Origin: Cyanobacteriota bacterium
GTDB taxonomy: Bacteria > Acidobacteriota > Vicinamibacteria > Vicinamibacterales > UBA2999
Direction of reading: 5' to 3'
Assembly (NCBI GenBank): GCA_019752015.1
Contig: JAIEMQ010000024.1
Span: forward strand, 1-64,000
DNA: 64,000 bases
The notes beneath the pieces were generated by a model that was not told where the DNA came from, did no database searches, and was given only the letters and a program-made list of their open reading frames with translations. A program made the position numbers and the translations under genes. Of the stretch, positions 1-30,593 are shown piece after piece. Positions within the stretch are counted from its first letter, which is position 1; each line of letters opens with the position of its first letter.

Positions 1-3000
1 CCGGTGACGCCCGGCAGCTGCGACGCCAGCACCGACAGATCGGCGCCGATCGAGAGATCGCGACCGGAGAAGTCGATCGAGAACTCGAGCAGCGGCGATA
101 CGTCCGCGGTGACCGGCAGGAACGACGACACCACCGCCGATTGAAAGGCGATCGGCACATCACCCGTCGTCAACGCGCCCTGCGCGATCGACAGCGTCGC
201 GCCGGTGGTCGTCAACGAGAGCGATCCGTTGCCGCCGGCGCTGCCGCGCACACTTTCGCGCCCCGCCAGGATGTCCAAATGCACCACGCCCTGCGCAAGC
301 GTCGACGCGTCGAAGGATCGCGATGGGACGACCGGGAATGACGCCACGAGTCCAGCGGGCGCGCGATAGAGGACGAAGTCCTCGGTGCGGGCATCTACCG
401 AAATCGCATCACCACTCACCAGTGTGAATGTTTCGGTGACGTTTGCCTGGACGACCGTGCCGGACGGCAATGGCGTCGGTGAAGTAACCGTCAAGGTGCC
501 GATCGACCGGCCGCCACTTGGCGACAGAATCGGCGGATCGAGCACGCCGGTGCTGGTGGCCGTCAGCGGAATCACCACGGCCGCGGCGCCCGGCAACGGA
601 TCGCCGAGCGCGGGAACCACTGGTGCGCCGGCGCCGGTATCGACGACGACGAGCGCGGCGCTGATGGCCTCCGACTGCGGCAACGCGACGCCGATAATGC
701 CATTCGCATCTGGTGTCAGCGGCCCGGAGGTCAGATGCCACGTGCGATTGACGTACCTCGCAAGATATGAAGGCGCAGATGATCCCAGGGCCGCAGCAGG
801 CACAGAAAGCGCAGACAGGTTGACACGGAGTGACAAGGGCAGGCTCGGCGCCGAGCCGCGAAGATCCACGGCGGCGAGCGGCGACCAGCCGAGCGGCAGA
901 AGTCCCGGCAGGCCTTGACCGGTCAGCGGCGTGACCCTGATGCTCGATCCATCCGCGAACGCGCCTGCCGGCACCGCCACCGAGATCGACGCGCTCGCAT
1001 CGATCGTCGCCGCGCTCGAGCCGACGGCGGTCGCGGCCGACAGTTTCGTCAATCGCGCATCGACGGCGGCGCTGCCGGTTTCCGCCGCGACATCGAGCGC
1101 GCGATCGACCGTGGTGTGATCGGCCTTCGAGATCGACAACGCGATGTGCGTGTCGTGGGCCGCGAACGTGTAGCGCCCGCGGCCGTCGCTGGCCAGCGTT
1201 GCCGCGCCGTCGACCGCGATTGCGGCATCGGCGAGCGGCAAGCCGTCGGCGTCGGTGAGGACCTGGCCGGCCACCGCACCGTCACTCACGACGTTGACGA
1301 TCGAGGCTGACTGCGAGCGGTTGCCGAGCCGATCGATCGCTTCGGCGACCACCGCGATGGAGTCGCCCCCGCGCGCATTGGCCGGAGCGGAAATGTTCAG
1401 CGCGAACGGCGGCGCGGTGAACGTCTGCACGATGGCGCCATTCACCGACACCGTCACGCGATCGAGCGCCAGGTTGTCGGCGGCGACGATGCTGGCCGCG
1501 ACAGGCCGCAATGGCGACACCTTCGGTCCGAGCGTCAGCGCAACGCTCGGCGCAATCGAATCGCGCGTCACCGTGACCTGCGCGGCGGTTTCGCGATCGG
1601 CCGCGTCCCTGGCCAGCGCGACGATCGTGTTGTCACCTTCCGATAACGCGACGGTGGCCGTGAAGCCGCGCGGCGAATTCCCTGACGGCGGATCGAGCGC
1701 CGCCGCGACGCCGTTGACGGTCAGCGCCGACACGCTGATGTCCTGAACGGTCCCCGAGACCGCGGTCGATCCGCCGACGGTCATCGCGCCCCCTGATGGC
1801 GATGCGATCGTGACGATCGGCGCGTTCAGATCGACGAGCACCGGCTTCGACGTCGTCGCGGTGTTGCCGGCGCCGTCGATCGCCTCGACGTCGATCGTCC
1901 GCTGTCCTTCCTCGAGCGAACTGATTGTCGTACTCCACGCCGAGCCGGACACCGTGACGGGTGTGCCGTTGACCCTCACCGTCACGCCGGTGAGCAGCTC
2001 CTGCGCGGTGCCCTGTACCGTGAGCGGCAGTGACGAGACGACCGTGCCAGTGGGATTCGTGATCGTCACGACCGGCGCAGTGTGATCGAATGTGACGTTG
2101 ACCCCGGCGAGCGCCTCGTTGCCCGCCGCGTCCGTCGCCGTGAGAATCAGGGTGTTGGTGCCTTCGGAGAACAGCGGCATCGTGATTTCGAAGAGGCCAT
2201 TGACCGGCGTCACGGTGGCTCCGCCGGCGGTGACCAGCACGGTTGACGAATCGCTGACCCTGCCGCGCACCGCGATAGGTGACTGGTTCGTGATCGCATC
2301 TGCCGACGGCTCGGTGATCGTGATCACCGGCGCGACGCTGTCGATGGTCAGTGCGCGCGTCACCGTCGTTTCATTGCCGGCCAGATCGTGCGCCTTCGCG
2401 GTCAGCGTGGCCGCGCCGTCCGGAAGCGGAACCTGGCCGCTGAAGGTGGTACCGCTCACCGTCATCGGCTCGTCGTTCACGGTGACGAACACGGTGCTGG
2501 CGTCGGACACGGTGCCGTTCACAGTGATCTGCGGCCCGGTCAGCACCACGCCAACCGCCGGCGAGGTGATGGCGACGGCAGGCGCGACGCGGTCAATGTG
2601 GACAGTGACCGTCGCGCTCCCCTGGTTGCCCGCGGCGTCGGTGGCGGTCACGGTGATCGTCTGCTGCGCGGCCGCGGTGAGCGGCACGCCCAGCACCGTG
2701 AAGGCGCCGGTGTCGACCGCCGCCGGGATGCCATCGACGACCACCGTCGTGGCGGTGGCATCGACCACGCCGCCGTGCACTTCCATCGTCTGCGCATTGG
2801 TGTATTGATTGGCCGCCGGATCGATGATCACGACCTGCGGCGCCATGCGATCGATCGTGAACGACACCGCGGCAGACGAGGCGCCGTTGCCGGCGTTGTC
2901 GGCGATCGACGCGACCATGGTGTGCTGGCCTTCGCCGAGCGAGGCCAGTTGCGCGGCGGCCTGCCCATTCGCCCAGGTGAACTGGCTGCCGAGATCGACG

Positions 3001-3737
3001 TTGTCCACCATCACGCGCAGCGACGATTGATTCAGCCCCGAGATTGGCGCTCCCGCGGCGCCCGCCGGATCGGACGCCTGCAGGGTGACTGCGATGGTGG
3101 CGCTGCTCGTGAACGAGCTCGCGACCGGAGTGGTAATCGCGATTTGCGGCGCGGTGGTATCGCTGACACTGTTGGTGCCGTAGAAGGTCACCGTCATGAA
3201 CGATTGCGGGGCGCTGGTGAGACGATACTCGACCGTGTTCTGCGCCTGCAGCGATACGCTCCTGTCAAAGGCGGCGACCTGCTGGCCGAACGCGCTGGGG
3301 CTTGCCACTTCGACGCCGTTCAGCGTGATGCGGGCCGATGACAGACGATTCGTGCCGTTCGCATTGCCGTTGACGACGCGCATGGTGAACGGGCCGGTGA
3401 CTCCGCTCGGCCGGGCAAACGACACGGTGTAGGTGTTCGGCGGACCCGCCGTGCGCGGGTAAGTGTTGGGGCCGAATACCACCACTTGCCCCGAACCCTG
3501 GGCAGGTTCCACAGGTTCCACAGGTTCCACTGGTTCCAGAGGTTTGGTTCCAATGGTTGCTGGTTCCACGGTTCCAGGGGTGGTTCCGGGTTCTGGGGCT
3601 GCCGGTTCCCGGCTCCCGGTTCCCGTCACGGTCGCCGCGCCTGTCGCCGTGATGGCAAACGTGTGCTGGGCGATCGGCTGGAGATAGATCGCAAACGCGA
3701 GCAGCGTGGCAACAAGACGTCGTCGCTTCACCATCAT
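1..3737 (-). CDS. Giant secreted Ig-like repeat protein (C-terminus beyond window)
   Basis: The minus-strand frame is open from the ATG at 3735-3737 to the window edge (1245 codons). The start overlaps the preceding gene's stop as ATGA, so translation is probably coupled. The protein begins with a basic then hydrophobic signal peptide (MMVKRRR, then LVATLLAFAIYL), followed by a Pro/Glu-rich linker with VEP repeats. Then come about seven to ten Ig-like modules of roughly 85-100 residues, each marked by AP-x-V-x-I-T-x-P and ending T-A-x-D-x-A-G-N, as in glucodextranase-B or Big-type domains. A carboxypeptidase-regulatory-like module follows, then a region with VPAGAFADGS. No catalytic motif is visible. 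The last part resembles pre-RHS regions of acidobacterial secreted proteins, so YD/RHS repeats may follow outside the window; that is inference. Confidence 0.85.
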   Translation of the reverse strand, partial: MMVKRRRLVATLLAFAIYLQPIAQHTFAITATGAATVTGTGSREPAAPEPGTTPGTVEPATIGTKPLEPVEPVEPVEPAQGSGQVVVFGPNTYPRTAGPPNTYTVSFARPSGVTGPFTMRVVNGNANGTNRLSSARITLNGVEVASPSAFGQQVAAFDRSVSLQAQNTVEYRLTSAPQSFMTVTFYGTNSVSDTTAPQIAITTPVASSFTSSATIAVTLQASDPAGAAGAPISGLNQSSLRVMVDNVDLGSQFTWANGQAAAQLASLGEGQHTMVASIADNAGNGASSAAVSFTIDRMAPQVVIIDPAANQYTNAQTMEVHGGVVDATATTVVVDGIPAAVDTGAFTVLGVPLTAAAQQTITVTATDAAGNQGSATVTVHIDRVAPAVAITSPAVGVVLTGPQITVNGTVSDASTVFVTVNDEPMTVSGTTFSGQVPLPDGAATLTAKAHDLAGNETTVTRALTIDSVAPVITITEPSADAITNQSPIAVRGRVSDSSTVLVTAGGATVTPVNGLFEITMPLFSEGTNTLILTATDAAGNEALAGVNVTFDHTAPVVTITNPTGTVVSSLPLTVQGTAQELLTGVTVRVNGTPVTVSGSAWSTTISSLEEGQRTIDVEAIDGAGNTATTSKPVLVDLNAPIVTIASPSGGAMTVGGSTAVSGTVQDISVSALTVNGVAAALDPPSGNSPRGFTATVALSEGDNTIVALARDAADRETAAQVTVTRDSIAPSVALTLGPKVSPLRPVAASIVAADNLALDRVTVSVNGAIVQTFTAPPFALNISAPANARGGDSIAVVAEAIDRLGNRSQSASIVNVVSDGAVAGQVLTDADGLPLADAAIAVDGAATLASDGRGRYTFAAHDTHIALSISKADHTTVDRALDVAAETGSAAVDARLTKLSAATAVGSSAATIDASASISVAVPAGAFADGSSIRVTPLTGQGLPGLLPLGWSPLAAVDLRGSAPSLPLSLRVNLSALSVPAAALGSSAPSYLARYVNRTWHLTSGPLTPDANGIIGVALPQSEAISAALVVVDTGAGAPVVPALGDPLPGAAAVVIPLTATSTGVLDPPILSPSGGRSIGTLTVTSPTPLPSGTVVQANVTETFTLVSGDAISVDARTEDFVLYRAPAGLVASFPVVPSRSFDASTLAQGVVHLDILAGRESVRGSAGGNGSLSLTTTGATLSIAQGALTTGDVPIAFQSAVVSSFLPVTADVSPLLEFSIDFSGRDLSIGADLSVLASQLPGVT
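3503..3538. repeat. 9-bp tandem repeat (about 4 copies) coding VEP
   Basis: Four consecutive copies of CAGGTTCCA (the last begins CTG) lie here. Degenerate GGTTCC units continue to about 3600. On the minus strand they encode a V-E-P tripeptide repeat in the linker after the signal peptide of the giant Ig-like protein. The unit is a multiple of three, so copy changes would keep the frame. Confidence 0.9.
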
Positions 3738-4231
3738 CGAATCCAGCTCGTCACCAACGACTGTACCGCTGCGGCGTTCATGCCGGCAGCGTTGCGCGAC
3801 CACATCACGCGATTACCACGAAGGCCCACGACCACCGGCGCGCCGCTAGCGCCGATCGCGCCGAGGGCGGCCCTGGCCTCGTCGAGATACCAGCCCGCAC
3901 CGGAGAGCTGGACGAGACCGGAGCGCAAGGCCGCCAGCTGCGCGGATGAAACGGCAGACACGATCACCGTGACGCGCTCGCGGTGCGCGAAGGTGAGCGC
4001 CTGATCGATGGCGCTGAATGCGGCGTCGCACGCGCGGCACGGCATCTGCGCGACGATCAAGACCCAGGCGCCGTCGCGCGCAAGGGCGTCGCTCGACGCC
4101 GGCGCACCGGCCGCGGTGGTCAGCGCAAACGACGGCAGCGTGCGCCCCTGCTGGGCGCGGAGCTCCGGCGCGTGCGCGATCGACAGCGCGATGAGCCCGG
4201 ACACGATGGAGCGAACGATCGAATGCGTCAT
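3734..4231 (-). CDS. Exported thioredoxin-like protein with CxxC motif
   Basis: 165 residues. The N-terminus is a signal peptide (hydrophobic IVSGLIALSIAHA, likely cleavage after AQQ). The mature part resembles the TlpA/AhpC-type thioredoxin fold: LPSFALTTAAG near the start, C-R-A-C at residues 65-68 in the position of the redox motif, and GAPVVVGL as the likely cis-proline segment. It probably works outside the cytoplasm as a thiol oxidoreductase or reductant. It overlaps both neighbouring giant-protein genes by 4 bp (ATGA each time), so the three are surely co-translated. A role in disulfide handling of those proteins is possible but unproven, since few cysteines are seen in them. Confidence 0.75.
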   Translation of the reverse strand: MTHSIVRSIVSGLIALSIAHAPELRAQQGRTLPSFALTTAAGAPASSDALARDGAWVLIVAQMPCRACDAAFSAIDQALTFAHRERVTVIVSAVSSAQLAALRSGLVQLSGAGWYLDEARAALGAIGASGAPVVVGLRGNRVMWSRNAAGMNAAAVQSLVTSWIR

Positions 4232-7200
4232 GGCGGAAGAATGATGGTGACGGTCTGCGGCACGTTGGTGACGTGCGTGACCGTGACGGTCTGCGACTTG
4301 CCCTGCCGCGTCGCGGTGATGGTGACCGTGCCGGCGGCATGCCGCGTGAACGTGACTCCGCCGCTGGGCACGTTGCCGGCGCTGTTGGCCACCGTGCCCA
4401 GGAACGTGCCGGTGGGCGTGGCGGTCTGCACGAACGAGCCGCTGACGTTCTGGCCGCTGCTGTTCTGCACGATGACGGTGAGACTGGCGGCCTGCAGCGT
4501 CACATCAATCGTGGCCGTGCCCGCCGTCACCTCGAGCACCGTCTGCCCAACGACGTTGGCCTCGTAGCCGATCACCGAGACGGTGCCAAACGGAACGTTG
4601 TTGAAGCTGTACGCACCCGCTGCGCTGGTCTGCACCACTCGCACGGGTCCGGATCCCGATTGCAGGTAGATCCACGCGAACGGCGCCGCCGAACCGTCTT
4701 CCCTGCGCAGCGTTCCGGAGACCGTGGCCAACGGTGCCAACGTCACGTCCACCGTCAACGTGTCACCGCTGTTCGCGAGCGTGCCGGACGCGGTGCCCGT
4801 GACTCCGACCGACGTGAGTGTGGCCTGCACCGACACGTCGCCGATCGCAACGGGATCGAACGAGTAGGTGCCATCGGGATTCGACCAGGTCGCGAACTGG
4901 CCATACGTCGCATGCGTGAGCTCGACGAGCACGGATTCGTTGACGGGCGCGCCGTCCGCATGCCGGACGGTGCCGCTGACCGTGCCGTACGGCGGCAACT
5001 CCACGTCGAGCACGAGCGTATCGCCGCCGTTTGCCAGCGTGCCTGAGGCCGCGCCCTGCACTCCGAAGCCGAAGTACACGTACGCCGTGACCTCGCCGAT
5101 GGGAACCGCCGGCGCGATGTATTCGCCGTTTTCATCGGTCGTCGCGTACACAGTGCTGATGGCCGTCGAGATCGCGACGTCGACGAACGGCACCGGCTGA
5201 TTCGATGACGTGCGTACCGTGCCGCGAACAGTGCCGGTCGGCGGCAACGCGAGGTTCGCGGTCACCGGCGTGGCGACGCCGGCAATCGTGACCGTTGTGG
5301 TCGCCATCAGCGAAGACACCGGATCTTGCGCGGTGACGTTGACGTCGCCGGCAATCGGTCCGGCAATGACGTAGCCTCCAGCCACGTTCGGATCGGCGAC
5401 CGCGTAGTAGTAGTTCGTCCACGACGCGCCCTGCTGCTCCGCGGTCACCGACGCGGCCTCGACCGCCGAGCCATCGGCGTAGGTGACGACACCGCGAATC
5501 ACGCCCACCGGCAAGACGATCGGAATGTCGAACGGACCGTCGCTGAGCCGGTGCACGGTCTGCGTGATTTCTGAATCGCCGAACCGCACGGTGATCTGGA
5601 TGAACTCTCCGGCGACCGCGCTCGCGAACTCGACGGTCCCGGTGGCATCCGCTTGTCGCGAACCGCCTTCCCACGGATTCTCGAGGTCGGTCACGGTGAA
5701 GAACGGCGCTGGTGTCACGCCATCGGCGGCCAGCAGCCGCACGGTGATCGGCCCGCCAATCGGCCGCGCCGCGAAGTCCACGCTGACGGTCTGGCCCGCC
5801 TGTGCCGGCGTGATGGTGCCGGCAACGGAGGTGGTCTGCCGCTCATCCTCAGGGCCGAGCGCGTAGATCGAATAGTCGCCAATGCCGGTATTGGTGAGCA
5901 GCGCATATCCCGCGGCATCGGTGTTCGCAGAGCGGCTGACGCCGCCGCGCTGATAGAAAACGGTCGCGCCCGGCACGGGCACGCCATCCGGCGTGCGATA
6001 GCGCACCAGCAGATTGGTCGTCGGTTGCGTGATAGTGAACGCCGCCTGAGCGATGGCGCTCGCGGCCGGGTAATCAGGATGCGTCGCCCTGGCGCGGACC
6101 GTCCTGTTGTCGGTGAGCGTGAACGGACCGGCGTAGGCGATGTCGGGGGTCCCGCCCTGGACGGTTGTATAGAAGATCGATGCGCCCGGAATCGCACTCA
6201 GCGTCACGGCCACGGAGCCGGCGAACGTGCCGCCGTTGGGCGAAATCGACGGCGCAGGCAGCGCGTAGTTGAACGTCGCGGTACGCACCAACGATGGCGT
6301 CCAACCGGCGATGAAAGCGCGAGCCTTCACGACGGCGGGACCGGCAATGGTGATCGCGCTGCCAGGATATTCCGTGGACGCATCGGTCGGATCGGCCGGC
6401 GGATTCGACGGCGTGCCGATCGCATAGCGGACCACCGCGCCGGCGGTGCTCACGCTCATCGTGACGTTCTGCGGCGCGGTCAGATTCGATCCGTCGGTCG
6501 GCGTGATGGCCGGCGTCGCCGGCTGCAGAATGAAGACCTGCTGCTCGGTATTGCTCGGCGGCTTGCTGCCATCCAACCGGAATGACTTGACCGTCAGCGT
6601 CTGCGTCGTGGTGATCTGAACCTGGCCATTCGCCGGCACTTCCTCGTCGTCGAACGCCGGCTCAACACCGTTGCGAGTGTACGTCGTCCTGACATCGGGT
6701 CCCTCGATGTTGTCGACGATGGCGATCTTGTTCACGCTGAACGTGCCGCCGTCGATGTCCACTGACGGCGTTGCCGTCTTCCACAGATAGTCCTCGATGC
6801 TGACCGCGACCGGGCTGTAGCGATGGCGATTGTTCACGCCGTCGCCGGTCTCGTACCACCCGTTGTTGCCCCAGCCGAAGACGACGCCGCTGTCGGTGAT
6901 CGCGTGCGATCCGTTCCAGCCGGCGCCGATGTCGACAATGTTGGCGAGGCCGGGTAGTTGGTACGGCGTGCCGCGCGTGTGGCTGCTCTCGTCGCCATCG
7001 CCAAGCGCGCCTGATGTGTTCTGACCCCACACCCACACGGTGCGATCGGACTTCAACGCGAGCGTGTGATGCAGACCCACGGCGAGCCGCGTGACGCCGG
7101 TCAGGTCGAGGACGGAAACCGGCGTCGTCCGATCGGATGCCGAGCCGCTCGATCCGTCGCCGACCACGCCGCCGCCGCCGGCGGCCTTCAATGTGCCGTC

Positions 7201-10200
7201 GGCAAGACGGACGACACTGAAGGTGTTGCCTGACGCGACCTCGACTGCCGTGGTGATGCCGCTCATCTGCACGAACGTCGATCGCACATTCGCCGTGGAG
7301 CCGGAACCGAGCTGGCCATTGCCGTCCTGACCCACGCCCCACACCGTGCCGTCGTTCTTCACGATCAGCGTATTGCCCGCCCCTGCCGCAATCGCCGTGG
7401 CGCCGGTCATGATCACGTGCGGAATCGGGAACGTCGCGCTGGTGTCGGCGCTGACCTGTTGTCCGCTCTCGTTGCGGCCCCACGAAACGACGTCGCCGTT
7501 CGATCGCAGCGCCACGGAGTGGAACCGGCCGGCCGCAATGGCGACGATCGAGTCGAGTGTCATCGCCGAAGGCGTCGATCGCGACCCGCCGGTGTCGCCG
7601 AGCTGTCCAAAGCTGTTCGACCCGAACACGTAGACGGTCCCGGTGTTGGTCAGCGCCAGGCTGTGACTGTCACCGGCCGCGAGTTGGACGATGTCGTTGA
7701 GCCCGCCGGCGACAATGCCCGGCCTCGGAATGGCTACGAAGCCGGCCGATCCGCCCTGGCCGAGATCGCCGCTGCCGCTTCGTCCAAAGCCCCACACCGG
7801 ACCGCCCGGCTGGGCGATCAACGTCGCTTCGTTCGCAGCGGCAATGCGTCGCGCAACGGGCGCGATGACCAGCGCAGCCACTTCCGTGTTTGACAGTGCG
7901 CGATCGTAAATGCGGACCTCGTCGAGCTTGCCGTTGAACGAATCGGTCACGCCCGCGCGGCCAAGCCACACATCACCATCGGCATTGGCCAGCACGCCGC
8001 TGACGGGTGTCGAGGCCGCCTCGATGCCGTTCACGTAGATCCTGAGCGTCGCCTGGTCGTAGGTCGCTGCGAGATGCGTCCACTGGTTGAGCGGAATGGG
8101 CGCCGTGGTTTGCAGCGACGTCGCCACACCGTTCGGATACATCACCGCAGTGACGCGGCCGCCGGTCTCGAGCGACAAGGCATAGGCGCCACCGCGGTAG
8201 ATCACCGATTGGGCCGCGCCAAATGTCTGCGGCGCGACCCACGCGGTCATCGACACGCCGGTTGACGCGTCGAAGTCATCGTGGTCAGCGACCTGCACAC
8301 CGTCGTCGATCCCGTCAAAGCTGATCGCCTTCGAGAACCGTCCGATCGAGAGCCACGCGGCGCCGTTCTCGAGCGTGCCCGGATGCCCGTTGCCGGTCGC
8401 ATCCGCCGTCGTCGTGCCGGCGCCCTCGTCGAACGGCCAGCGCGCCACCGGTGTCGAGCGATCGATGACGATCGTGCGCGTCCCGGTCACCACTTCGCTC
8501 AACAGGCCGATCGCAGTGACGGTCAGCGTGTTATTGCCTTCGGGCAGCGAGTTGACGGGCAGCAGCGCCGAGTGAGAGTTGCCCGCGGCAGTGCCGGTGA
8601 TCGTCACGCCGCCGAGCGTGAAGTCGACACGGATGACGGGTTCGCTGACGGTCGCCGTCGCCGTCAGCGGACGCCGCGTGGTGAAGCCTGCGGCCGGAGA
8701 CGTGATCGCCAGCACGATTGGATCGTTGTCGACCACAATCGTGGTCGGGTCGCTCGTGGGTCCGGCGTTGCCGGCGTAGTCGGTCGCCTTCGCGGTGAGC
8801 AGGTGCCGGCCTTCGGACGTCGATGCGGAGTTCCACGTGCCGCTGAAGCCCGCCGTGTCCTCGAGGGTCAGGATCTTGAGTCCGTCGCGGAAGATCTCGA
8901 TGAAGTCCACGCCGGACAAGGCATCAGTGGCGGTCGCAGTGATCGTGGTCGTGCCCGCAACGGTTGGGCCATCGCCAATGTTGTCGATTGCCGCGACCGA
9001 CGGCGCGGTGGCGTCGATCTTGAACGTGCCGGGTATCGTCGCGGTGTTGCCGGCGCGATCCGCAGACGAGGCGGTAAACACGTGGGTGCCATCGGCCAGC
9101 GCCGCTGCCGCGGGCACGGTATGGCTGATCGCTCCCGAGCTCCTGCTGGTCGTGACCGCGATGCCATCGATCGCGATCACACCTGACGTCGTCTCGATGC
9201 CGCTGGTCGCGTCGGACCGCAGCACCACGATCGCCGGCGTGTTGTCCTTGAGCCAGGCGTCGCTTTGCGGCGGCGCACTGATCGACAGCGCCGGCGGCAC
9301 GGTGTCGGTGGTGGCAAAGCGCGTGATCTTTGCGGCGCCCTGCTCGTTGCCGGTCGCGTCAACTGCGCCGTCTACGGTGACCGTATAGATCGCGTTGCCG
9401 GCCAGCGCCGGCGACGGCGTGAACGTCAAGACATTCGCGGGCCCTTGCGCCGTCGAGCCGGTCACGACGATGCCGGAACGGGTCACCGCGATCAAGCCGT
9501 CGAAGCTCGCGTTCGCAACGGGCTCCGAGAACGTCACGACGATCGGTGCGGAGACGCCGGCTTCGATGGCGTCGTCGGGTGGCGATACGATCGACACGGC
9601 CGGCGCGGTCGTATCCACGGTCGTGAACACGGTATTCATCGTCGACACGAGATGGCGGCCGAACACGTCGACCACGCCGGTCGTCACCGCGATGGTGAGC
9701 TCGGAACTATCGGGCCAGGTGCCGCTCAGCGTCAGCGTCCTGCCATCCGCAGACAACGAACGCGACGCGCCGAGCGTGGTCACGCCTTGCTTCACGTTCA
9801 CGCCGGCCGTGCTCGAGAGCGGATCGGTGAAGGTCACGACGACCGGTTGCGTGCGCAACACGCCAATCGCGCCATTGACCGGCGAGATCGACGCCACCGA
9901 GACGACGCCGTTATCGAGCACCAGCGCGCCGGTCTCGAAGGTGTCGCCGTTTTGTGCCAGCGTGACGTTGAGCGCGCGCGCATAGGCGTTGGTCGCCGGG
10001 TCGTAGACGCTGATCGTGTAAGTGCCCAGGGGCAGGCCGGTGAACGAGAACTCACCGGTGGAGAACGCCTGAGCGGTGACATCGACACCGTTGCCGAACA
10101 ACCTGACGGCGGCGCCGATGGCCGGCGTGCTGCCGCCGGGACGCAGCACGGTGCCGTGCACATCACCCGTCGATTGCAGCGTCACAGTCACCGACGCGGT

Positions 10201-13200
10201 TTGATCGGGCGTGACCGTGCCGGCCGACGTGCCGTAGAGCGTCGCGGCGCCGGATGAATGGCGGACCTTCGCGGTGAATGGACCGGCGAGCACTTGTGCG
10301 GCGGCGAACGACCCGTCGGGGTTCACGGTCACGGTTGCCGACCACGCAATGACGCCGGTGCCGGTCAGCGTCACGGTGCCGCCCGCCGGCGATCCGTTCG
10401 CCGCTTGCGCATACCCGCTGATCGATCCCACCCCGGTCAGCGAGAGGTTGACGACCACGGTGTCCCCGCTTGCCACGTTCGCGCTGCCCCTCGCGGTGTC
10501 GATGCTGCCAATCACGTCGACGGTAACGGTCCGTGCGCCCGCGGGAACCAGATCGATACGATACGCGCCCTGATCGTCGGTGGTCGACGAGAAGCGCGTG
10601 TTGCCGACCATGATGGTGACAATCGACGGCGGCGCCGCGAGGCTGCTGTTGGCCCGCGTGATCGCGCCGGTCACCGTGCCGGTGGGTTGCAGCTGGACGT
10701 CGATGGTGACGCTGCCGCCTTCGCCGATCAGCGTGCCGCCGGCGGTGCTGCTCTGCAGCGCGCCGGCGAGGTCGGCGTTGACGGTCACCTGCCCTTCCGG
10801 AACACCGGGGATGCCGTAGACGCCGTTGCCGTCCGCGGTGGTCTGAGCTTTGAACGTGCCCGACGAGACGCTGACGCGCGCGCCAGCCTGCGGATTACCG
10901 TTCTGCGTGACCTGACCCGTGACGGTGCCGAGGCCCTGCGCCTTGACATCGAGAATCAATGCCTGGCCGTCGCTGACGATCTGCCCGACCGCTACGCCGC
11001 TTCTGCCGGTGGCGGGATCGAGTCCTTCGATCCGCACTGTGCCCGCGGGGACGTACGTGAATGCAAACGCTCCCGCGTTTTCACCGGAATCCGACGTCGC
11101 CTGACCGATCACCCTGCCGTTGGCGAGCAACTTGAGCGCACCAAATGGAATCGCCGTCACGCCATCGGGCATCAGGAATCGACCCGTCACGGTTCCCGTC
11201 ACGGTCAGCCGCACGGTGACATCGACAGTCGCACCATCCGACGGCAACTCTCCCGAGACGCGGCCACCGCGGCCGAAGATGTCGGATGCCGACACGCTGA
11301 AGTCCCCTTCGGAAACGTTCTCGAACGTGACCACACCCTCGTTCGACGGCTCGACCACGCCTTCAAACGTCTCGAACGGGAACCCGGATTCCTTCAACGT
11401 GACGAGCGCACCCGAGACGGCGACGTTGCCGCCGTCGACGACCTTGATGCGAACGGTGCCGCGCCCCTTCAGACGGAAGTCGTGCGGCACGGGCTCAACG
11501 TTAGGGACCCTGGCCTTGAGCCTGACGACTTCCTGCGCCACGCCGCCGCTGGCGGGATCTCGAATGGTGACGCGATAACTGTCGATCGGCAGGATTTCCG
11601 GGAACGCGAAGTAGCCCTGGTCGTTGGTCGTGACCACCACATCGGGCAATGCGCCCTTCGCGGTCACCGACACGCCCGCGCCGGCGCTGGTCACGCCGTC
11701 AGGCAGGAATACCGTTCCGACCAGGCGCTCGGCGAGCGAGTTGATCAGCTGAACGTCGATCACCAGTTCGTCGCCATCGCGCGCGAGCACGCGGCTCGCG
11801 CCGATTGGCGTGGGATAGAACTCCTGGCTGATCCGGACGCTGACCGCGCCGACCGGAACGCCGGTCACGCGATAGGTGCCGTTGACGCCGGTGCGGATCC
11901 GATGCGACACGCCGGGAACGAGACTGCAGGATCCCGATTCGTAGATCCGCGACGAGACCTCGACCGTCGCGCCGAACACCGGCGCGCCGGTGTCATCCGT
12001 GACGGTGCCGCGGATGCCGCCGCCGCCGCCGAAGCGCAACACACCATTGACCTCGGCGCCCTCAAACGGGATCGCGGTATCGAGCTTGGCCACGTCGACG
12101 CCGGTGACGGTGGCACGCAGCGATACCGCTCGCACCTGGCCGACTTCGAGGCCCGCGAACTGCGCCCGCCCGTCGTTGTCCGTCGTCGCGAGGTAGAACG
12201 CGGTGCAGTCGTTCGGCGAAGCGTTGCGGCCGGTGCGGGCAATCTGCACGATCTGATTGCGGACCGGATTGCCGGCACTGTCGATCACCGCGAGATTCAG
12301 CGTCCCGATGCCGTTCAACGTGACGAGGACATTCGAGACCTGCTGGCCGGACAGATTGACGAGGACGTTCGCCGTCCCCTCCCGCAAACCATCAGCCGAC
12401 GTCGCGCGAATGGTTTGCGCGGTGGATTGGAACCTGACACCCTCGATCGTGAACGTGCCGTCTTCCCCGGCGACCACGCCGCGACTCGACAGCAGGACCA
12501 CTGCCCGCGGGGCCACGCTGCCATCCGGGTACTGCACGACACCGGACACGACCGCGTTGCGAACGACTTCGATGATCAGGTTGCGTCCGGTGATCACATC
12601 GCCGGCCGTGGCAATGCCCTGGAAACTGATGAAGTCGCTGGTGGCGATGCGGGCACGAAGCGTGTACGGACCCGTCGGCATGCCAGTGAACGAGTACCCG
12701 CCGTCGATGGCCGTCGTCGCCACACCGGCGACGATCGGCTCCGGACCGCCCAGCGGACTCGGCGTCTCGTACACGACGATCGCGCCCGGCGCCGGCGCGA
12801 GGACGCCGTTCTCCTGCGTCTTGATGACGCCGGAGAGGGACACTCTACCATCGTTGAGCGTGAGATCGGCCTGCGCGATCATGCCGGCACGCGAGATCTG
12901 CCCGCTCGCGGCGCCGACCGCGAGGCCCTTCGCGGCCCTGATGCTGACCGGACCGACGGTGATGTTGCTCAACAGGTAGCGGCCATCGCCGTCCGTCGTG
13001 GTGGCGCCGCCGACGTTGGTCTCGAGCGTGCTGACAGCGATCACCTGCGCGCCCGGCACCGGCTGGCCGCTCAGGTTTCGGACGGTGCCGGCGATCGAGC
13101 CGCGGCCCAGCAGCGCGATGTCGGCGGCGATGCGCTCGCCCGCGGTCCGCACCTTGCCGGACACCAAACGCTGCGATTGACGGACCTCGTCGATGGCGCG

Positions 13201-16113
13201 CATGCCGAACGCCACGCCGCAGCGATCCTGATAGACGTAGCGGAATTGATAGCGGCCTTGCGCGTCGGTGACGGCCGCGGCAAATGGCGTGGTGTCGGTC
13301 GACTGGCAGTCGCTCCAACTCGAGTTGCCGCTGTAGATCACGCGCACGCCGGCGGCGAGCTGGCCGTCGCCGTTGATCACGCGGCCGGACACCACCGCAC
13401 CCGGCGCTTCCAGCAATGATTGCAGCGGCTTCACTTCGGTACCGCCCGCCACCCCGCGCACGTCGGTCATGCCGCTGACCGTGACGGCCGACGGCACATA
13501 CGGACCTTCCGGGAACGCGAGCGTGCCGAGCACGATGCGTCCGGATAACTGCCGGCGGGCGCCGTAGAACTCATTGTCGGGAATCGAGTAACGCGTCCGA
13601 TCCGCTGACGCCGTGTTGTCGACAATGCGATCGAACAGCAACGCGACGTTGAATCCGAACGGTCCTGCAGTCTGGAATGTTTCGGGACCGACGACGCTCG
13701 CCGACAGGAACTGCGGGCCCGCCGCCGTGATCGTCTCCGTGGTCAGCGGCGTGGACGTGGCGATCGATCCTTCGCCATCAGCCTCCACATCGACCGTCGG
13801 TGATGCGCGCGATGGATCGATCACGATGCGCGCTTTGCCGCCAGCGGCGATGAAAACGCCGCTCGCCGTCGCGCGCGTGAAGCTGCCGTCGCCGCGCGGA
13901 TAGGTGATCGAGATGTCGGCCGGCGATCCGCGCCCGCTCAACTCCAGCGTGTAGGGCATCGCCGCCGGTGCGGCGATCACGCCAAACACCGGCGCGTCTT
14001 GCGGATCGCCCAGCGGCGCGATCACTGCGGATGCCACTGCGGGGCGAGGATCGCCGTCGGCGCCGGTGTAGACCAGCGCGCGTCCGGCGGAATCGGTCAG
14101 GCGAATACCGGCGTCCGCACCCGCGGTGCCGTTCTGGATCGCGAACGAGACGAAATCGCGTCCCGACGCCGCGATGCGCGCGAAATCTTCTTCCACGGCC
14201 GACGCGTTCGTGCTGCCGAGATTGGCGAGGGCAGCGCCGACGGCGCGATTGAAATTGCGGCCCGCATCCGTCATGCGCAGCAACTGGTCGAAACCGCGAT
14301 CGATCGGCGCCGGCCCGTAAAAGTCAGGCAGGAGATCGCGAATCGCGGTCGCCGCCGGCTGACCGAGGCGGATGCGCAAGCCGGCTTCGGCAAGCGCGAG
14401 TGCCCTGGCCGTGACCACCGATTTCGACATGCGAATGACACCCGCCGGCATCGCGTTTGGAGGGGTGTTCGCAATGCTCCAGGCCTGGCCCAGCACGCGC
14501 ATCGACGCCGCGATCAGTTCCGCCGGCAGCTCGTCGACCGATGCCGGCAACACCAGCGTGTCGGGCGAGAGCGGAACACCGCGCTCGCCGACGCCGACCC
14601 TGAACCTGATGCCGCCGGTCGCGCCGTCACCCTCGAACTTCAAGTACGTCGCGACCGCCTGGCCGGTGCGCAGCGCCTTGAAGTCGAAGACCAGCGTCTC
14701 CGCTTCGCCGGGTTTCAGCATCGGGATCGAGCGAGTGCCGCTGCCAAGCAGCTGCACGCCGCTCAACGACCCGCTGTCGAGCGTCATCGACACGTCGTTG
14801 GCGATGCCCTGCCCCTTGTTGGTCACCGTCGCATAGAGCTTGAACGGCTCTTCCGCGCGCACCACTGTCGGCAGCGTGAAGCTCACGTCGAAGAACGGAT
14901 TGCGCACGAGCACGCCGCCCCTGGCGGTTCCGGTGACGGTGATCGGTCCCGTCGGCAGGCCGTCGAGCACGCCTTCGATGTCGAAGCTGATGTTGTGGAA
15001 GCCCTCGGCATCCCCGCGCACCAGGAATTCCGCCATGCCCTGCTCGCCCGCGCGCAGGCTCGCGACGTCGTCCGGGGTGCCGGGCTTGCCATCGGGACCG
15101 GCCGCCGCGATCGTCATCGTCGCCGGCTGCGGACCATTGATCGTTTCCGCGAGCGACAGCGGATCGATCGAGTTCGCGTCCGGGTTGTCGGGAAGCGTGA
15201 TCGTCCCGCTGAGATTACGAACGGTCAGGTTCGCGGTCGCCGGCGTACCGTTGCCGACGAACAACTGTGCCGAGAAGAACTGTTTCAGGAAGCCAACTTC
15301 GCCTGGAATAACGAGCAGGCTGGGAATCTTGATGTCGTCTTCCCTGAAATTGAGGCCAAGCGTCGATCCCGGACCGAGCTTCGGGATCTTCATCATCATC
15401 GGCACCAGCTTCGGTACGATGACGGGTTCTCTCAGACCCTCGACGTCGAGCGCGGGCAATGATTGCGGCAGCGGCACCGCGATGCCCTGGCGATCGAACA
15501 CCACCGGGAACGCCAGCTTCACGGGCTTCGACTCGAGCAGCACGCCGAGCGTGAACTCGAAACCCAGATAGTCGTCGCTGTCGAGAACGATGCCCTTGTC
15601 CTTGATCTCCTGAAGGGTCAACGGCCGTGTGCGGACCGATGTGATCAGTACTTGATCGACCACGTTGACGGGCACGACCTGCGGCTGCAGATCCAGCAGC
15701 GGCGCGTCGAAGGTGTTGACGATGCGCAGATTCGAAAGCGTGTGTTCGCCGGCCACCGCCATGACCGGCAACGGGAGGATGACGTCGGGGCCGGCGGTCG
15801 CCGGGAGAATCCGCTGGCGAACCGTGACCGTTTCACCGAACGAAGGTCCGGACAGCTCGCCCGCCACATCGAACGCACCGAGGAGGCTTGCCGCGTCGGC
15901 CGGCGTCAGCGTGCCGCCACCGCCGCGAATCAGGATCTTGACGCCGGAGGCGACATTCTTGGGGATGGCGGGACGAGCGCCGTCGACCGTGGCGCTGAGC
16001 CCGACGAGGGCCAGCTCCATTTCGCCGATCTTGCGGAGCTGCTGGGCCTGCGTCGACACGGTCGCGCACACCAGCAGCAACACTGCGAGCGAGGGGAGCA
16101 GTCGCGTTCGCAT
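4228..16113 (-). CDS. Giant secreted mosaic protein: carboxypeptidase-regulatory, LamG, RCC1 and CHB_HEX-like domains
   Basis: 3961 residues from the ATG at 16111-16113. I chose this start because a clean signal peptide follows (MRTRLLPSLAVLLLVCATVS, then TQAQQ); an in-frame extension to 16203 looks non-coding. Approximate layout: N-terminal unique region; CARDB-like module (415-500); about a dozen carboxypeptidase-regulatory-like beta-sandwich repeats (900-2050) recognisable by G-T-V-T-x-x-G and A-x-V-x-V; Big_5-like modules (2070-2270); Ig-like modules (2275-2550); a LamG/concanavalin-like domain (2558-2745, starting RWPFDEG); RCC1-type repeats (2758-3110, with repeated GDSHSLAL and GxNSFGQLG motifs); two CHB_HEX_C-like modules (3195-3365); and more carboxypeptidase-regulatory-like repeats to the end. 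No enzyme active site or cell-wall sorting signal was seen. It is likely a surface or extracellular binding/adhesion protein. It is the first gene of the operon with the two genes downstream. Confidence 0.85.
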   Translation of the reverse strand: MRTRLLPSLAVLLLVCATVSTQAQQLRKIGEMELALVGLSATVDGARPAIPKNVASGVKILIRGGGGTLTPADAASLLGAFDVAGELSGPSFGETVTVRQRILPATAGPDVILPLPVMAVAGEHTLSNLRIVNTFDAPLLDLQPQVVPVNVVDQVLITSVRTRPLTLQEIKDKGIVLDSDDYLGFEFTLGVLLESKPVKLAFPVVFDRQGIAVPLPQSLPALDVEGLREPVIVPKLVPMMMKIPKLGPGSTLGLNFREDDIKIPSLLVIPGEVGFLKQFFSAQLFVGNGTPATANLTVRNLSGTITLPDNPDANSIDPLSLAETINGPQPATMTIAAAGPDGKPGTPDDVASLRAGEQGMAEFLVRGDAEGFHNISFDIEGVLDGLPTGPITVTGTARGGVLVRNPFFDVSFTLPTVVRAEEPFKLYATVTNKGQGIANDVSMTLDSGSLSGVQLLGSGTRSIPMLKPGEAETLVFDFKALRTGQAVATYLKFEGDGATGGIRFRVGVGERGVPLSPDTLVLPASVDELPAELIAASMRVLGQAWSIANTPPNAMPAGVIRMSKSVVTARALALAEAGLRIRLGQPAATAIRDLLPDFYGPAPIDRGFDQLLRMTDAGRNFNRAVGAALANLGSTNASAVEEDFARIAASGRDFVSFAIQNGTAGADAGIRLTDSAGRALVYTGADGDPRPAVASAVIAPLGDPQDAPVFGVIAAPAAMPYTLELSGRGSPADISITYPRGDGSFTRATASGVFIAAGGKARIVIDPSRASPTVDVEADGEGSIATSTPLTTETITAAGPQFLSASVVGPETFQTAGPFGFNVALLFDRIVDNTASADRTRYSIPDNEFYGARRQLSGRIVLGTLAFPEGPYVPSAVTVSGMTDVRGVAGGTEVKPLQSLLEAPGAVVSGRVINGDGQLAAGVRVIYSGNSSWSDCQSTDTTPFAAAVTDAQGRYQFRYVYQDRCGVAFGMRAIDEVRQSQRLVSGKVRTAGERIAADIALLGRGSIAGTVRNLSGQPVPGAQVIAVSTLETNVGGATTTDGDGRYLLSNITVGPVSIRAAKGLAVGAASGQISRAGMIAQADLTLNDGRVSLSGVIKTQENGVLAPAPGAIVVYETPSPLGGPEPIVAGVATTAIDGGYSFTGMPTGPYTLRARIATSDFISFQGIATAGDVITGRNLIIEVVRNAVVSGVVQYPDGSVAPRAVVLLSSRGVVAGEDGTFTIEGVRFQSTAQTIRATSADGLREGTANVLVNLSGQQVSNVLVTLNGIGTLNLAVIDSAGNPVRNQIVQIARTGRNASPNDCTAFYLATTDNDGRAQFAGLEVGQVRAVSLRATVTGVDVAKLDTAIPFEGAEVNGVLRFGGGGGIRGTVTDDTGAPVFGATVEVSSRIYESGSCSLVPGVSHRIRTGVNGTYRVTGVPVGAVSVRISQEFYPTPIGASRVLARDGDELVIDVQLINSLAERLVGTVFLPDGVTSAGAGVSVTAKGALPDVVVTTNDQGYFAFPEILPIDSYRVTIRDPASGGVAQEVVRLKARVPNVEPVPHDFRLKGRGTVRIKVVDGGNVAVSGALVTLKESGFPFETFEGVVEPSNEGVVTFENVSEGDFSVSASDIFGRGGRVSGELPSDGATVDVTVRLTVTGTVTGRFLMPDGVTAIPFGALKLLANGRVIGQATSDSGENAGAFAFTYVPAGTVRIEGLDPATGRSGVAVGQIVSDGQALILDVKAQGLGTVTGQVTQNGNPQAGARVSVSSGTFKAQTTADGNGVYGIPGVPEGQVTVNADLAGALQSSTAGGTLIGEGGSVTIDVQLQPTGTVTGAITRANSSLAAPPSIVTIMVGNTRFSSTTDDQGAYRIDLVPAGARTVTVDVIGSIDTARGSANVASGDTVVVNLSLTGVGSISGYAQAANGSPAGGTVTLTGTGVIAWSATVTVNPDGSFAAAQVLAGPFTAKVRHSSGAATLYGTSAGTVTPDQTASVTVTLQSTGDVHGTVLRPGGSTPAIGAAVRLFGNGVDVTAQAFSTGEFSFTGLPLGTYTISVYDPATNAYARALNVTLAQNGDTFETGALVLDNGVVSVASISPVNGAIGVLRTQPVVVTFTDPLSSTAGVNVKQGVTTLGASRSLSADGRTLTLSGTWPDSSELTIAVTTGVVDVFGRHLVSTMNTVFTTVDTTAPAVSIVSPPDDAIEAGVSAPIVVTFSEPVANASFDGLIAVTRSGIVVTGSTAQGPANVLTFTPSPALAGNAIYTVTVDGAVDATGNEQGAAKITRFATTDTVPPALSISAPPQSDAWLKDNTPAIVVLRSDATSGIETTSGVIAIDGIAVTTSRSSGAISHTVPAAAALADGTHVFTASSADRAGNTATIPGTFKIDATAPSVAAIDNIGDGPTVAGTTTITATATDALSGVDFIEIFRDGLKILTLEDTAGFSGTWNSASTSEGRHLLTAKATDYAGNAGPTSDPTTIVVDNDPIVLAITSPAAGFTTRRPLTATATVSEPVIRVDFTLGGVTITGTAAGNSHSALLPVNSLPEGNNTLTVTAIGLLSEVVTGTRTIVIDRSTPVARWPFDEGAGTTTADATGNGHPGTLENGAAWLSIGRFSKAISFDGIDDGVQVADHDDFDASTGVSMTAWVAPQTFGAAQSVIYRGGAYALSLETGGRVTAVMYPNGVATSLQTTAPIPLNQWTHLAATYDQATLRIYVNGIEAASTPVSGVLANADGDVWLGRAGVTDSFNGKLDEVRIYDRALSNTEVAALVIAPVARRIAAANEATLIAQPGGPVWGFGRSGSGDLGQGGSAGFVAIPRPGIVAGGLNDIVQLAAGDSHSLALTNTGTVYVFGSNSFGQLGDTGGSRSTPSAMTLDSIVAIAAGRFHSVALRSNGDVVSWGRNESGQQVSADTSATFPIPHVIMTGATAIAAGAGNTLIVKNDGTVWGVGQDGNGQLGSGSTANVRSTFVQMSGITTAVEVASGNTFSVVRLADGTLKAAGGGGVVGDGSSGSASDRTTPVSVLDLTGVTRLAVGLHHTLALKSDRTVWVWGQNTSGALGDGDESSHTRGTPYQLPGLANIVDIGAGWNGSHAITDSGVVFGWGNNGWYETGDGVNNRHRYSPVAVSIEDYLWKTATPSVDIDGGTFSVNKIAIVDNIEGPDVRTTYTRNGVEPAFDDEEVPANGQVQITTTQTLTVKSFRLDGSKPPSNTEQQVFILQPATPAITPTDGSNLTAPQNVTMSVSTAGAVVRYAIGTPSNPPADPTDASTEYPGSAITIAGPAVVKARAFIAGWTPSLVRTATFNYALPAPSISPNGGTFAGSVAVTLSAIPGASIFYTTVQGGTPDIAYAGPFTLTDNRTVRARATHPDYPAASAIAQAAFTITQPTTNLLVRYRTPDGVPVPGATVFYQRGGVSRSANTDAAGYALLTNTGIGDYSIYALGPEDERQTTSVAGTITPAQAGQTVSVDFAARPIGGPITVRLLAADGVTPAPFFTVTDLENPWEGGSRQADATGTVEFASAVAGEFIQITVRFGDSEITQTVHRLSDGPFDIPIVLPVGVIRGVVTYADGSAVEAASVTAEQQGASWTNYYYAVADPNVAGGYVIAGPIAGDVNVTAQDPVSSLMATTTVTIAGVATPVTANLALPPTGTVRGTVRTSSNQPVPFVDVAISTAISTVYATTDENGEYIAPAVPIGEVTAYVYFGFGVQGAASGTLANGGDTLVLDVELPPYGTVSGTVRHADGAPVNESVLVELTHATYGQFATWSNPDGTYSFDPVAIGDVSVQATLTSVGVTGTASGTLANSGDTLTVDVTLAPLATVSGTLRREDGSAAPFAWIYLQSGSGPVRVVQTSAAGAYSFNNVPFGTVSVIGYEANVVGQTVLEVTAGTATIDVTLQAASLTVIVQNSSGQNVSGSFVQTATPTGTFLGTVANSAGNVPSGGVTFTRHAAGTVTITATRQGKSQTVTVTHVTNVPQTVTIILPP

Positions 16114-16261
16114 GCTTGCGTGGGTATCTTGCCGATATAGACTGCCAGGCGCCGCAAACTTCTCACAGTATTTGCACGCTATTTTTTGCGGAAATGGCAG
16201 CATTTCTGCTGCGTACGACGAAACTGCGTACTTTTTGTGCAGGTCTGGAACAGCTCGGCCG

Positions 16262-17542
16262 TCAGCGGATCAGATAGCGCCTCAACAGATCGATCGCCCA
16301 GTTCGCTGACATGGCTTTCACCATTTCACGTCCGCCAGGAAACCGAAACGTGCGCACCCTGGTCTCTCCGCCATCAACGGCGATGCAGACGGTGCCGACC
16401 GGCTTCTGTTCGCTCCCTCCGCCGGGCCCCGCAATCCCGGTGATCGCGACGCCGACATTCACACCGGTCCTCTTCCGGATGCCTGCCGCCATTGCCGCCG
16501 CGACGGGTTCGCTCACGGCGCCGTGCTCGGCGATCAATGCTTCGGGCACGTCGAGCAGTTCAATCTTGGCGCGATTGCTGTAGGCCACGATGCTGCGCTC
16601 GACGTATTCAGAGCTGCCGGGAACGTCCGTCATCCTCGACGTCGCGAGCCCGCCGGTGCACGACTCCGCAAAGGCGACCCACCAGCCCCGCGCGCGCAGC
16701 AGATCGCCGACGACGGCTTCCAGCACCGAGCCGTCGGTGCTGACGAGATCGGGGCCAAGCGCCGTCGCGAGATCCGACACGGCGGCGTCCAGAGTCTGCG
16801 ATGCTTTCGCCTGATCGCCGGATTGCATTACCAGATGCAATTCCACCTGGCCGAGCCCCGCGAGAATCGTGGTGACGATCGGCGGCGATTGATTCAGCCA
16901 CTGCGAGTAGATCGGCTGGACGATCTCCTCCACCATCGACTCGCCTTTGCCGGCCACGCGCACGAGCCGGCGGTGCAGGCGGACGCTGCCGGTGATCTTC
17001 TCCAGGCGGCGGCGAACATCGCCGTCCATCATCGGCATCATTTCGCGCGGCGGCCCCGGTAACAGCGCGATGTAGCGCTTGCCCCCCGTAGCTTCATGCG
17101 AAGGGGGGTGCTCGATCCACAGACCCGGAGCGGTGCCGTGCGGATTCGGCAGTACCGTCGCACCACGGGGCACCATCGCCTGGCGCCGGTTGACGGCGGG
17201 CATCTTCCAGCCGCGCGCGGCGAATCGCCGTTCCATCGCCTCGATGATCGCGGGATCTTCGTCGAGCGGCAGGCCAAGGTGCGCCGCCACCACTTCGCGC
17301 GTCAGATCATCGTCCGTCGGGCCCAGCCCGCCGGTGAGGATCAGCACGCGATGACGCGCCAGCGCATGGACCACGTGCGACGTCAGCTCGGCGCGATCGT
17401 CGCCGACGATCGCCTTGAAGGCGACGGCGATGCCGAGATCGTTGAGCACCTTGGTCACGTAGAGCGAGTTGGTGTCGGTCTTGTGCGGCGTGAGGAGCTC
17501 GCTGCCGACGGCGAGAACCGCCGCGGTCAGGCCGTCAGCCAT
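16262..17542 (-). CDS. cinA: CinA family protein (NMN deamidase)
   Basis: 426 residues from the ATG at 17540-17542; a GTG 21 bp upstream is possible, but MADGLTAAVLAVGSELL matches the usual family start. The N-terminal half is a MoCF-biosynthesis-like domain (AVGSELL, LTGGLGPTDDD). The C-terminal half is the CinA deamidase domain with SCTGG, AYSN, and GIAGPGGG. The family hydrolyses nicotinamide mononucleotide to the nicotinate form in NAD salvage and was named for competence and damage induction. The segment PPSHEATGGK after residue 165 is a likely in-frame insertion encoded by a palindrome (see separate entry). The start overlaps the end of pgpA by 16 bp. Confidence 0.93.
   Translation of the reverse strand: MADGLTAAVLAVGSELLTPHKTDTNSLYVTKVLNDLGIAVAFKAIVGDDRAELTSHVVHALARHRVLILTGGLGPTDDDLTREVVAAHLGLPLDEDPAIIEAMERRFAARGWKMPAVNRRQAMVPRGATVLPNPHGTAPGLWIEHPPSHEATGGKRYIALLPGPPREMMPMMDGDVRRRLEKITGSVRLHRRLVRVAGKGESMVEEIVQPIYSQWLNQSPPIVTTILAGLGQVELHLVMQSGDQAKASQTLDAAVSDLATALGPDLVSTDGSVLEAVVGDLLRARGWWVAFAESCTGGLATSRMTDVPGSSEYVERSIVAYSNRAKIELLDVPEALIAEHGAVSEPVAAAMAAGIRKRTGVNVGVAITGIAGPGGGSEQKPVGTVCIAVDGGETRVRTFRFPGGREMVKAMSANWAIDLLRRYLIR
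17082..17108. repeat. Palindromic element inserted in cinA
   Basis: C-tract (17082-17087), GTAG, then CTTC-ATGC-GAAG and a G-tract (to 17108) form a two-part hairpin. On the minus strand it encodes the PPSHEATGGK stretch of CinA, between the well-conserved GLWIEH and YIALLPGPP segments, where other CinA proteins have no such stretch. Peptides of this kind recur in unrelated acidobacterial proteins, from memory, which suggests a dispersed small palindrome that tolerates insertion into genes. Confidence 0.5.
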
Positions 17543-17994
17543 GACGGCACCATCCACACGCACGCGCGGAGCGCGAGATGCGCATAGAGTCCCGCGACCG
17601 CGTCATCGGACATGATCCCGAGACCGCCATGCAGGTGCTCGAGCTGCGCCGCGGGATAGGGCTTGACCACGTCGAGCGCGCGAAAGAACAGGAACCCGAG
17701 CGCGATGCCCCACAGCGACAGCGGCAGCAGGGCGAGAGTGATCAGCATGCCGAGCACTTCGTCGATCACGACGACGCCGGGATCCTTGCGGCCGAGCGCG
17801 ATCTCGGTGCCGTGCGCGGCCCAGACGCCGGTCGCGAAGACGACGACGATCGCCGAGAGTTCGATGGCGGGCACGCCGATCCACTTGATGAAGGCAAACA
17901 GCGCGAGCGCCGCCAGCGATCCGGCCGTGCCCGGCGCGATTGGAAAGAAGCCGACGTAGCCGAAACTGGCGATGAAGACCGCCAGAGCCTTCAT
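17527..17994 (-). CDS. pgpA: Phosphatidylglycerophosphatase A
   Basis: 155 residues with the family signatures PIAPGTAGSLAAL, RKDPGVVVIDEVLGM, FFRALDVVKPYP and HGGLGIMSDDAVAGLYA. The enzyme removes the phosphate from phosphatidylglycerophosphate to give phosphatidylglycerol and sits in the inner membrane; three to four hydrophobic segments are visible. It starts at 17994, overlapping the RDD gene's stop by 4 bp (ATGA), and its 3' end overlaps cinA, so it lies in the middle of a compact operon. Confidence 0.93.
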   Translation of the reverse strand: MKALAVFIASFGYVGFFPIAPGTAGSLAALALFAFIKWIGVPAIELSAIVVVFATGVWAAHGTEIALGRKDPGVVVIDEVLGMLITLALLPLSLWGIALGFLFFRALDVVKPYPAAQLEHLHGGLGIMSDDAVAGLYAHLALRACVWMVPSWLTA

Positions 17995-30532: not shown

Positions 30533-30576
30533 CCGATCGGGGGCGTGGCGGCGAACCGACACGTGCGTCCGAGAGA

Positions 30577-30593
30577 GCATACGCCGAGTATGC
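30577..30593. promoter_or_regulatory. Inverted repeat upstream of nucleotidyltransferase-like gene
   Basis: GCATAC-GCCGA-GTATGC is a perfect 6-bp inverted repeat with a 5-bp spacer. It lies 45 bp upstream of the chosen start and overlaps the alternative one. It could be an operator; that is inference. Confidence 0.35.

Follow-up and report, generated by a model that had tools for sequence, protein, structure and literature searches.

A small protein family with a putative thioredoxin fold is encoded beside paired giant exported proteins in several genera and in MAGs from other phyla

The window analyzed here is a 64,000-nucleotide stretch of contig JAIEMQ010000024.1. It begins with three genes, all on the minus strand, which encode two giant proteins (giant B and giant A) and a small protein between them (Table 1). 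An earlier reading of this DNA, made from the sequence alone, had described a 3961-residue giant, a 165-residue CxxC protein, and an Ig-like giant joined by ATGA overlaps, and both overlaps were confirmed. The open reading frame of giant B spans 16203-4228 (3991 aa). Starting from the ATG at 16113, which lies just before a leader resembling a signal peptide, the protein has 3961 aa. Hydrophobic export-type leaders are present at the start of giant B, the small protein, and giant A, as judged by reading the sequences rather than with a predictor. A scan of positions 15950-16350 for promoters and terminators found none. Gene calls were made with our own simple ORF script and do not represent an annotation.

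Table 1. Positions of the genes, junctions, and borders of the giant-protein cluster in the window
Feature	Position	Strand	Remarks
Giant B (giant 1)	4228..16113	-	3961 aa; leader resembling a signal peptide; N-terminal region of ~900 aa conserved
Small exported protein, putative thioredoxin fold	3734..4231	-	165 aa; CRAC; cis-Pro-like GAP
Giant A (giant 2)	1..3737	-	ATG at 3737; first 1245 aa to base 3, contig end
Stop of giant B overlapping start of small gene (ATGA)	4228..4231	-	
Stop of small gene overlapping start of giant A (ATGA)	3734..3737	-	
Overlap with contig C10 (593-760)	1..169	-	98%; giant A appears to end on C10
cinA, upstream border of the cluster	16262..17563	-	named by eye from the sequence

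Giant A consists of a leader, an N-terminal domain common to other A giants, and repeated Ig-like domains of the Glucodextran_B, Big_13, and Big_7 types. Its gene runs off the contig, but the terminal 169 bases of the window match positions 593-760 of contig C10 of the same genome at 98%, and the frame continues there for ~350 residues to about C10:1820. The joined protein would measure ~1600 aa (1245 + 407 - 54 shared), which is far shorter than giant B. The 407-aa piece on C10 has matches at 23-31% to ten A giants from elsewhere, two of them reaching no better than E 0.002, and a much weaker resemblance to two B giants. Beyond the end of giant A on C10 are genes read as thpR, plsY, gpsA, and ftsY, and in 8/8 other genomes of the genus cinA is directly followed by thpR and plsY. 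Given the overlap and the intact cinA-thpR-plsY order in all eight congeners, the two contigs very likely adjoin. Thus, the three genes form an insertion between cinA and thpR in this genome. Positions 1-592 of C10 (L009), to the left of the overlap, do not continue giant A, possibly due to an assembly fault or a strain mixture. Other contigs of this genome also contain nine short matches (82-94%) to a stretch of giant A (window 767-816), which is perhaps a domain shared with further large proteins. Elsewhere in the window, the minus strand carries a 187-aa ORF with the look of a nucleotidyltransferase (30017-30580) and a 148-aa ORF with the look of a VapC-type PIN-domain protein (32089-32535), both judged by eye.

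The Pfam content of giant B comprises ten CarboxypepD_reg stretches, Big_5, LamG, RCC1 repeats, and CHB_HEX_C_1, together with a CARDB-like match below the cut-off. In BLAST comparisons with giant B of other loci, the best pieces are 28-33% identical over about 1100-2450 residues, beginning at residue ~55. The N-terminal region scores 287.8 bits with alignment A3, which includes the window sequence itself, and its identity to the A3 reference is 30%, compared to 57-73% for six other B giants. This region is present in 20/193 genomes of the class, in 9/141 genomes of the Geobacter order, and in 31 loci of named records that include Geobacter argillaceus, Desulfuromonadales, Nitrospirae, Elusimicrobia, KSB1, Aminicenantes, and Myxococcota, the MAG names being as given. 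Alignment A4 contains the window sequence and 20 of these 31 loci; L108 was dropped after stops appeared and L106 was dropped alongside without a test, while L115, L116, L118, L120, L121, L123, L126, L128, and L131 were never taken in. In a tree of the N-terminal region (support values not shown), which retained two 153-aa fragments of about 27 bits (L151 and L160), the window protein falls into a second subtype. A structure model of the region was usable (pLDDT 77.3), and its structural matches are common beta-sandwich domains, with none of the listed matches centered on the helical part at residues ~500-630. The top S-layer matches rest on a single Ig-type domain within residues ~777-882, on which SbsC superposes with Z 14.5-14.8 and rmsd 1.5-1.6 over 94 residues.

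The relatives compared with the small protein are 18-30% identical to it. D117, P132 (the cis-Pro position), W144, and W163 are invariant in 16 relatives. A GVLNDP-type C-terminal stretch is found in most relatives and is absent from the window protein. The family profile A1 matches 2m72_A at E 4.2e-7 and 5um7_A at 1.8e-4, profile A2 agrees, and there is also a weak match to 3gl3, a DsbE-like protein. These modest profile matches suggest that the small protein has a thioredoxin fold. The window protein itself has no Pfam match at 0.01 (AhpC-TSA reaches 13.6 bits against a cut-off of 26), and thioredoxin or AhpC-TSA matches at E 0.01 or better were obtained for 3/16 members of the family. A single-sequence structure model of the window protein was unusable (pLDDT 36.9).

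Searching with the window protein as a single sequence produced matches in 9/162 genomes of the order, its own included. Profile A1 identified at least 19 clear members (143.7 bits or more) in at least 11/193 genomes of the class, and the scores then drop directly to 44 bits. The first protein below this gap (G019 C7) reads as an ordinary TlpA-like protein and has no giant beside it. A sample of 396 genomes from the phylum added at least two further members, both from a single genome (G416; 72.7 and 46 bits). The contigs of the named B records led to 20 genomes, five of which have a match to the small gene; three of the five are new (two Desulfuromonadales MAGs and one Nitrospirae MAG), while the matches in G548 and G556 belong to genomes already counted as G156 and G164, as judged by identical positions. 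The family thus comprises at least 24 members including that of the window, and some may have been missed because the scored candidates were limited to at most 18 per class genome and at most nine per phylum-sample genome. In one locus (G051 C81; L032 9454-10573), two family members lie in tandem after one giant, one with and one without CxxC.

The sequence-only reading had held that finding the small gene next to unrelated genes elsewhere would refute its proposal. This is not what was seen in 19/24 members, in which the directly upstream gene encodes a giant, some of these being truncated at the end of a contig or interrupted in their frame. A single gene intervenes in three more (G018 C415, G162 C226, and the second tandem copy in G051 C81). 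In G416 C1, the small gene follows only a 408-aa ORF of CarboxypepD_reg-like look, while in G051 C701 it lies at a contig edge. The B N-terminal region was found in 10/11 class genomes carrying the small gene, an association that is partly circular because A3 was built from those loci. With a giant directly upstream in 19/24 members, the linkage is real and exceeds chance, and it connects the small gene with giants in several genera and in MAGs from other phyla. The proposal that the small protein is made in fixed ratio with both giants fared less well, as it rests on the ATGA overlaps, which are not conserved across loci: a 4-base overlap like that of the window recurs between the small gene and the giant in G416 C5, while many other loci that were read have gaps, the start codons behind this comparison being our own choice.

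The arrangement of the three genes also varied. B and A do recur as a pair, but the order in most class loci with enough upstream sequence is A-B-small, and the B-small-A order of the window recurs once (G051 C220, whose A has matches of up to 47% among the other A giants). Among loci of the second B subtype, A comes right after B and the small gene is missing in four (G001, G166, G169, and G192), and a fifth (G165) has B with neither A nor the small gene, while G173, G178, and G164 C54 could not be judged. The window thus combines this second subtype with a small gene, which was not found at the other loci read for it. A fixed three-gene order was consequently rejected. Geobacter argillaceus has the order A-PpiC-B with no small gene detected. 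Because B, mostly together with A, occurs without a detected small gene in these five loci and in G. argillaceus, whatever help it provides is not always needed.

The main rivals to a folding role for the small protein are that it is a catalytic redox enzyme or a structural part of the giant assembly. According to the first, it would be a genuine thiol-disulfide enzyme of the TlpA/DsbE type that reduces or isomerizes disulfides of the giants, with the cysteine-less relatives being derived. The CRAC motif and cis-Pro-like residue of the window protein, the profile match to solved thioredoxin-like proteins, and the DsbA-like proteins encoded at some loci are all consistent with this, as is the even number of cysteines in the mature window giant B (four after the leader, at 966, 995, 1333, and 1426). 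Against this explanation, CxxC is present in 11/24 members and missing in 13/24, the two kinds being intermingled on a weakly supported tree, while the cis-Pro position is kept in 23/24. The sequence-only reading had named a lack of cysteine-containing domains in either giant as evidence against its proposal; this lack is seen in giant A, which has no cysteine in its known 1245 aa, but not in giant B. Among loci with a sufficiently long B (10/24 members fell outside, mostly with B partial or not extracted), B contains 1.0-4.3 cysteines per 1000 residues beside eight CxxC members vs. 3.0-5.1 beside five cysteine-less members (p 0.019). When G053 C1 is added, a cysteine-less member whose B has a broken frame (3086 aa, 1.3 cysteines per 1000), the latter range becomes 1.3-5.1 and p rises to 0.11. 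Therefore, we restrict the claim to there being no excess of cysteine in B beside CxxC members, rather than a firm deficit. Neither the survival of CxxC nor the cysteine counts support a redox service of the giants' cysteines, or the earlier suggestion that the small protein reduces the giants. With about half of its relatives lacking the redox cysteines, the small protein looks more like a folding helper than a disulfide enzyme, and we consider the enzymatic explanation unlikely.

Several loci encode further proteins of interest alongside the giants. A PpiC/SurA-type isomerase gene separates A from B in G547, G545, and G019 C8, while in G051 C220 it immediately precedes B; the proteins exceed the Pfam cut-off in the three loci tested, and that of G545 was judged by eye. 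A DsbA-like protein is encoded after the small gene in six loci: those in G018 C147, G053 C1, and G416 C5 pass Pfam, those in G019 C4 and G009 C5 look similar without a Pfam match, and that in G416 C1 was assigned by eye. The protein directly 3' of the small gene in G416 C5 (L096 471-2312) has 614 aa and three tandem DsbA-like domains. Five loci were tested for a PEP-CTERM gene directly upstream of A, which exceeded the cut-off in G547, G053 C9, and G545, fell just under it in G053 C36, and was absent from G159; none was seen by eye in other loci. The window cluster has no visible PpiC/SurA isomerase, DsbA-like, or PEP-CTERM gene. The PEP-CTERM motif itself (PF07589) is absent from window B, the known part of window A, and two giants of other genomes, a B and the C-terminal 4126 aa of an A. 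Exosortase (PF09721) was found in 47/193 class genomes, including the present one, where it lies on another contig. It occurs in 9/11 genomes with the small gene vs. 38/182 without it (Fisher p 5.9e-5, with relatedness not corrected for) and in 1/10 genomes with B but no small gene, the one being G097, which has a weak B match (29.6 bits).

These neighbors also bear upon the second main rival, in which the small protein would be a bound subunit, lid, or secretion adaptor of a giant surface assembly instead of a transient helper. In favor of such a part, the fold is retained among members with and without the active site and the gene stays linked to the giants, and the conserved W144 and W163 and the GVLNDP-type stretch of most relatives would likewise suit it. 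However, PpiC and DsbA-like neighbors are typical of folding functions and no anchor or repeat was recognized upon reading the window small protein, so we regard a structural part as improbable. Much less probable still is that the small gene is a generic thioredoxin-like hitchhiker in a mobile or recombining island with no functional tie to the giants. Although the module is an insertion absent from 8/8 genomes of the same genus and the small gene was not found at the other loci read for the B subtype of the window, its linkage to giants recurs at low identity in 11 class genomes and in Desulfuromonadales and Nitrospirae MAGs. Finally, despite an LPLGWSP-type stretch in giant A, which we take to be of a kind found in RHS-bearing proteins, the giants are most improbable as RHS/polymorphic-toxin or contact-dependent effectors with the small gene as an accessory or immunity protein, since no RHS/YD repeat or toxin domain is present in the scanned giants (window B, the 1245 aa of giant A within the window, and the B and C-terminal A sequence of other genomes named above) and the small protein has an export-type leader.

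Overall, we favor, with a probability of roughly one half, a role of the small protein as a periplasmic foldase or holdase that is dedicated to the paired giants and need not be redox-active. The export-type leader, the thioredoxin fold suggested by profile, and the tie to giants make help with folding the best guess, and this portion of the originally proposed helper role still stands, while its redox portion is weak. The fold core being kept while the presence and absence of CxxC intermingle also argues for a dedicated helper, as do the PpiC/SurA-type and DsbA-like neighbors at some loci and the exosortase enrichment, whereas the restriction of the PpiC and DsbA partners to a minority of loci, the window cluster not among them, argues against it. 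The fast evolution of the small protein is consistent with a partner-specific protein, as it is with weak constraint. As such a foldase or holdase, the small protein would bind the giants in the periplasm during their export and folding, and members that retain CxxC may additionally act upon the small number of disulfides in B. The giants themselves are probably surface-exposed; B and A would end up at the cell surface or within the extracellular matrix, where the pair most likely forms a surface or matrix structure. A more ambitious and quite tentative extension, against which we would still place the odds, is a multi-phylum assembly line for paired giants: a new system of surface-structure biogenesis combining a thioredoxin-fold chaperone that repeatedly loses its redox site, PpiC and DsbA-like proteins encoded in the cluster, and display coupled to exosortase and PEP-CTERM, all on an island that moves between species. 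Bacterial proteins of 4000-6000 residues need to be exported and folded, and to our knowledge, few of the helpers involved have been described. A small gene that persists beside giants in distantly related bacteria, with its catalytic cysteines present in some and absent from others, offers a testable candidate for a non-redox helper with a thioredoxin fold.

The pairing had been called unfamiliar by the sequence-only reading, and within the portions of the literature that our search covered, we likewise recognized no description of a module of this small gene with giants. Individual components do resemble known systems. Like exported thioredoxins of the TlpA/ResA/DsbE type, the small protein has an export-type leader, a profile-predicted fold (2m72, 5um7, and weakly 3gl3), a cis-Pro and, in the window, CxxC, but the window protein scores under the AhpC-TSA cut-off, about half of the family is without CxxC, and the genomic partner is a giant. 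The periplasmic parvulins SurA and PpiC have counterparts beside giant B in four related loci, although here they are encoded within the giant cluster and the cluster in the window has none. An Ig-like domain in the giant B model superposes on SbsC, but this likeness to the S-layer proteins SbsC and SbsB concerns one common Ig-type domain and says nothing about function. The PEP-CTERM/exosortase system for surface proteins (Haft et al. 2006, cited in PMC7726332) has parallels in the PEP-CTERM gene that immediately precedes A at some loci and in the enrichment of exosortase with the small gene, while the scanned giants are without the PEP-CTERM motif and no PEP-CTERM gene was seen at the window cluster. 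Lastly, the Giant1-5 genes of Apilactobacillus kunkeei are consecutive genes for giant extracellular proteins (PMC12863079). Their host is a lactic acid bacterium and the consulted part of that paper notes no linked foldases; by description, they share with the present cluster the adjoining placement of genes for surface proteins of thousands of residues.
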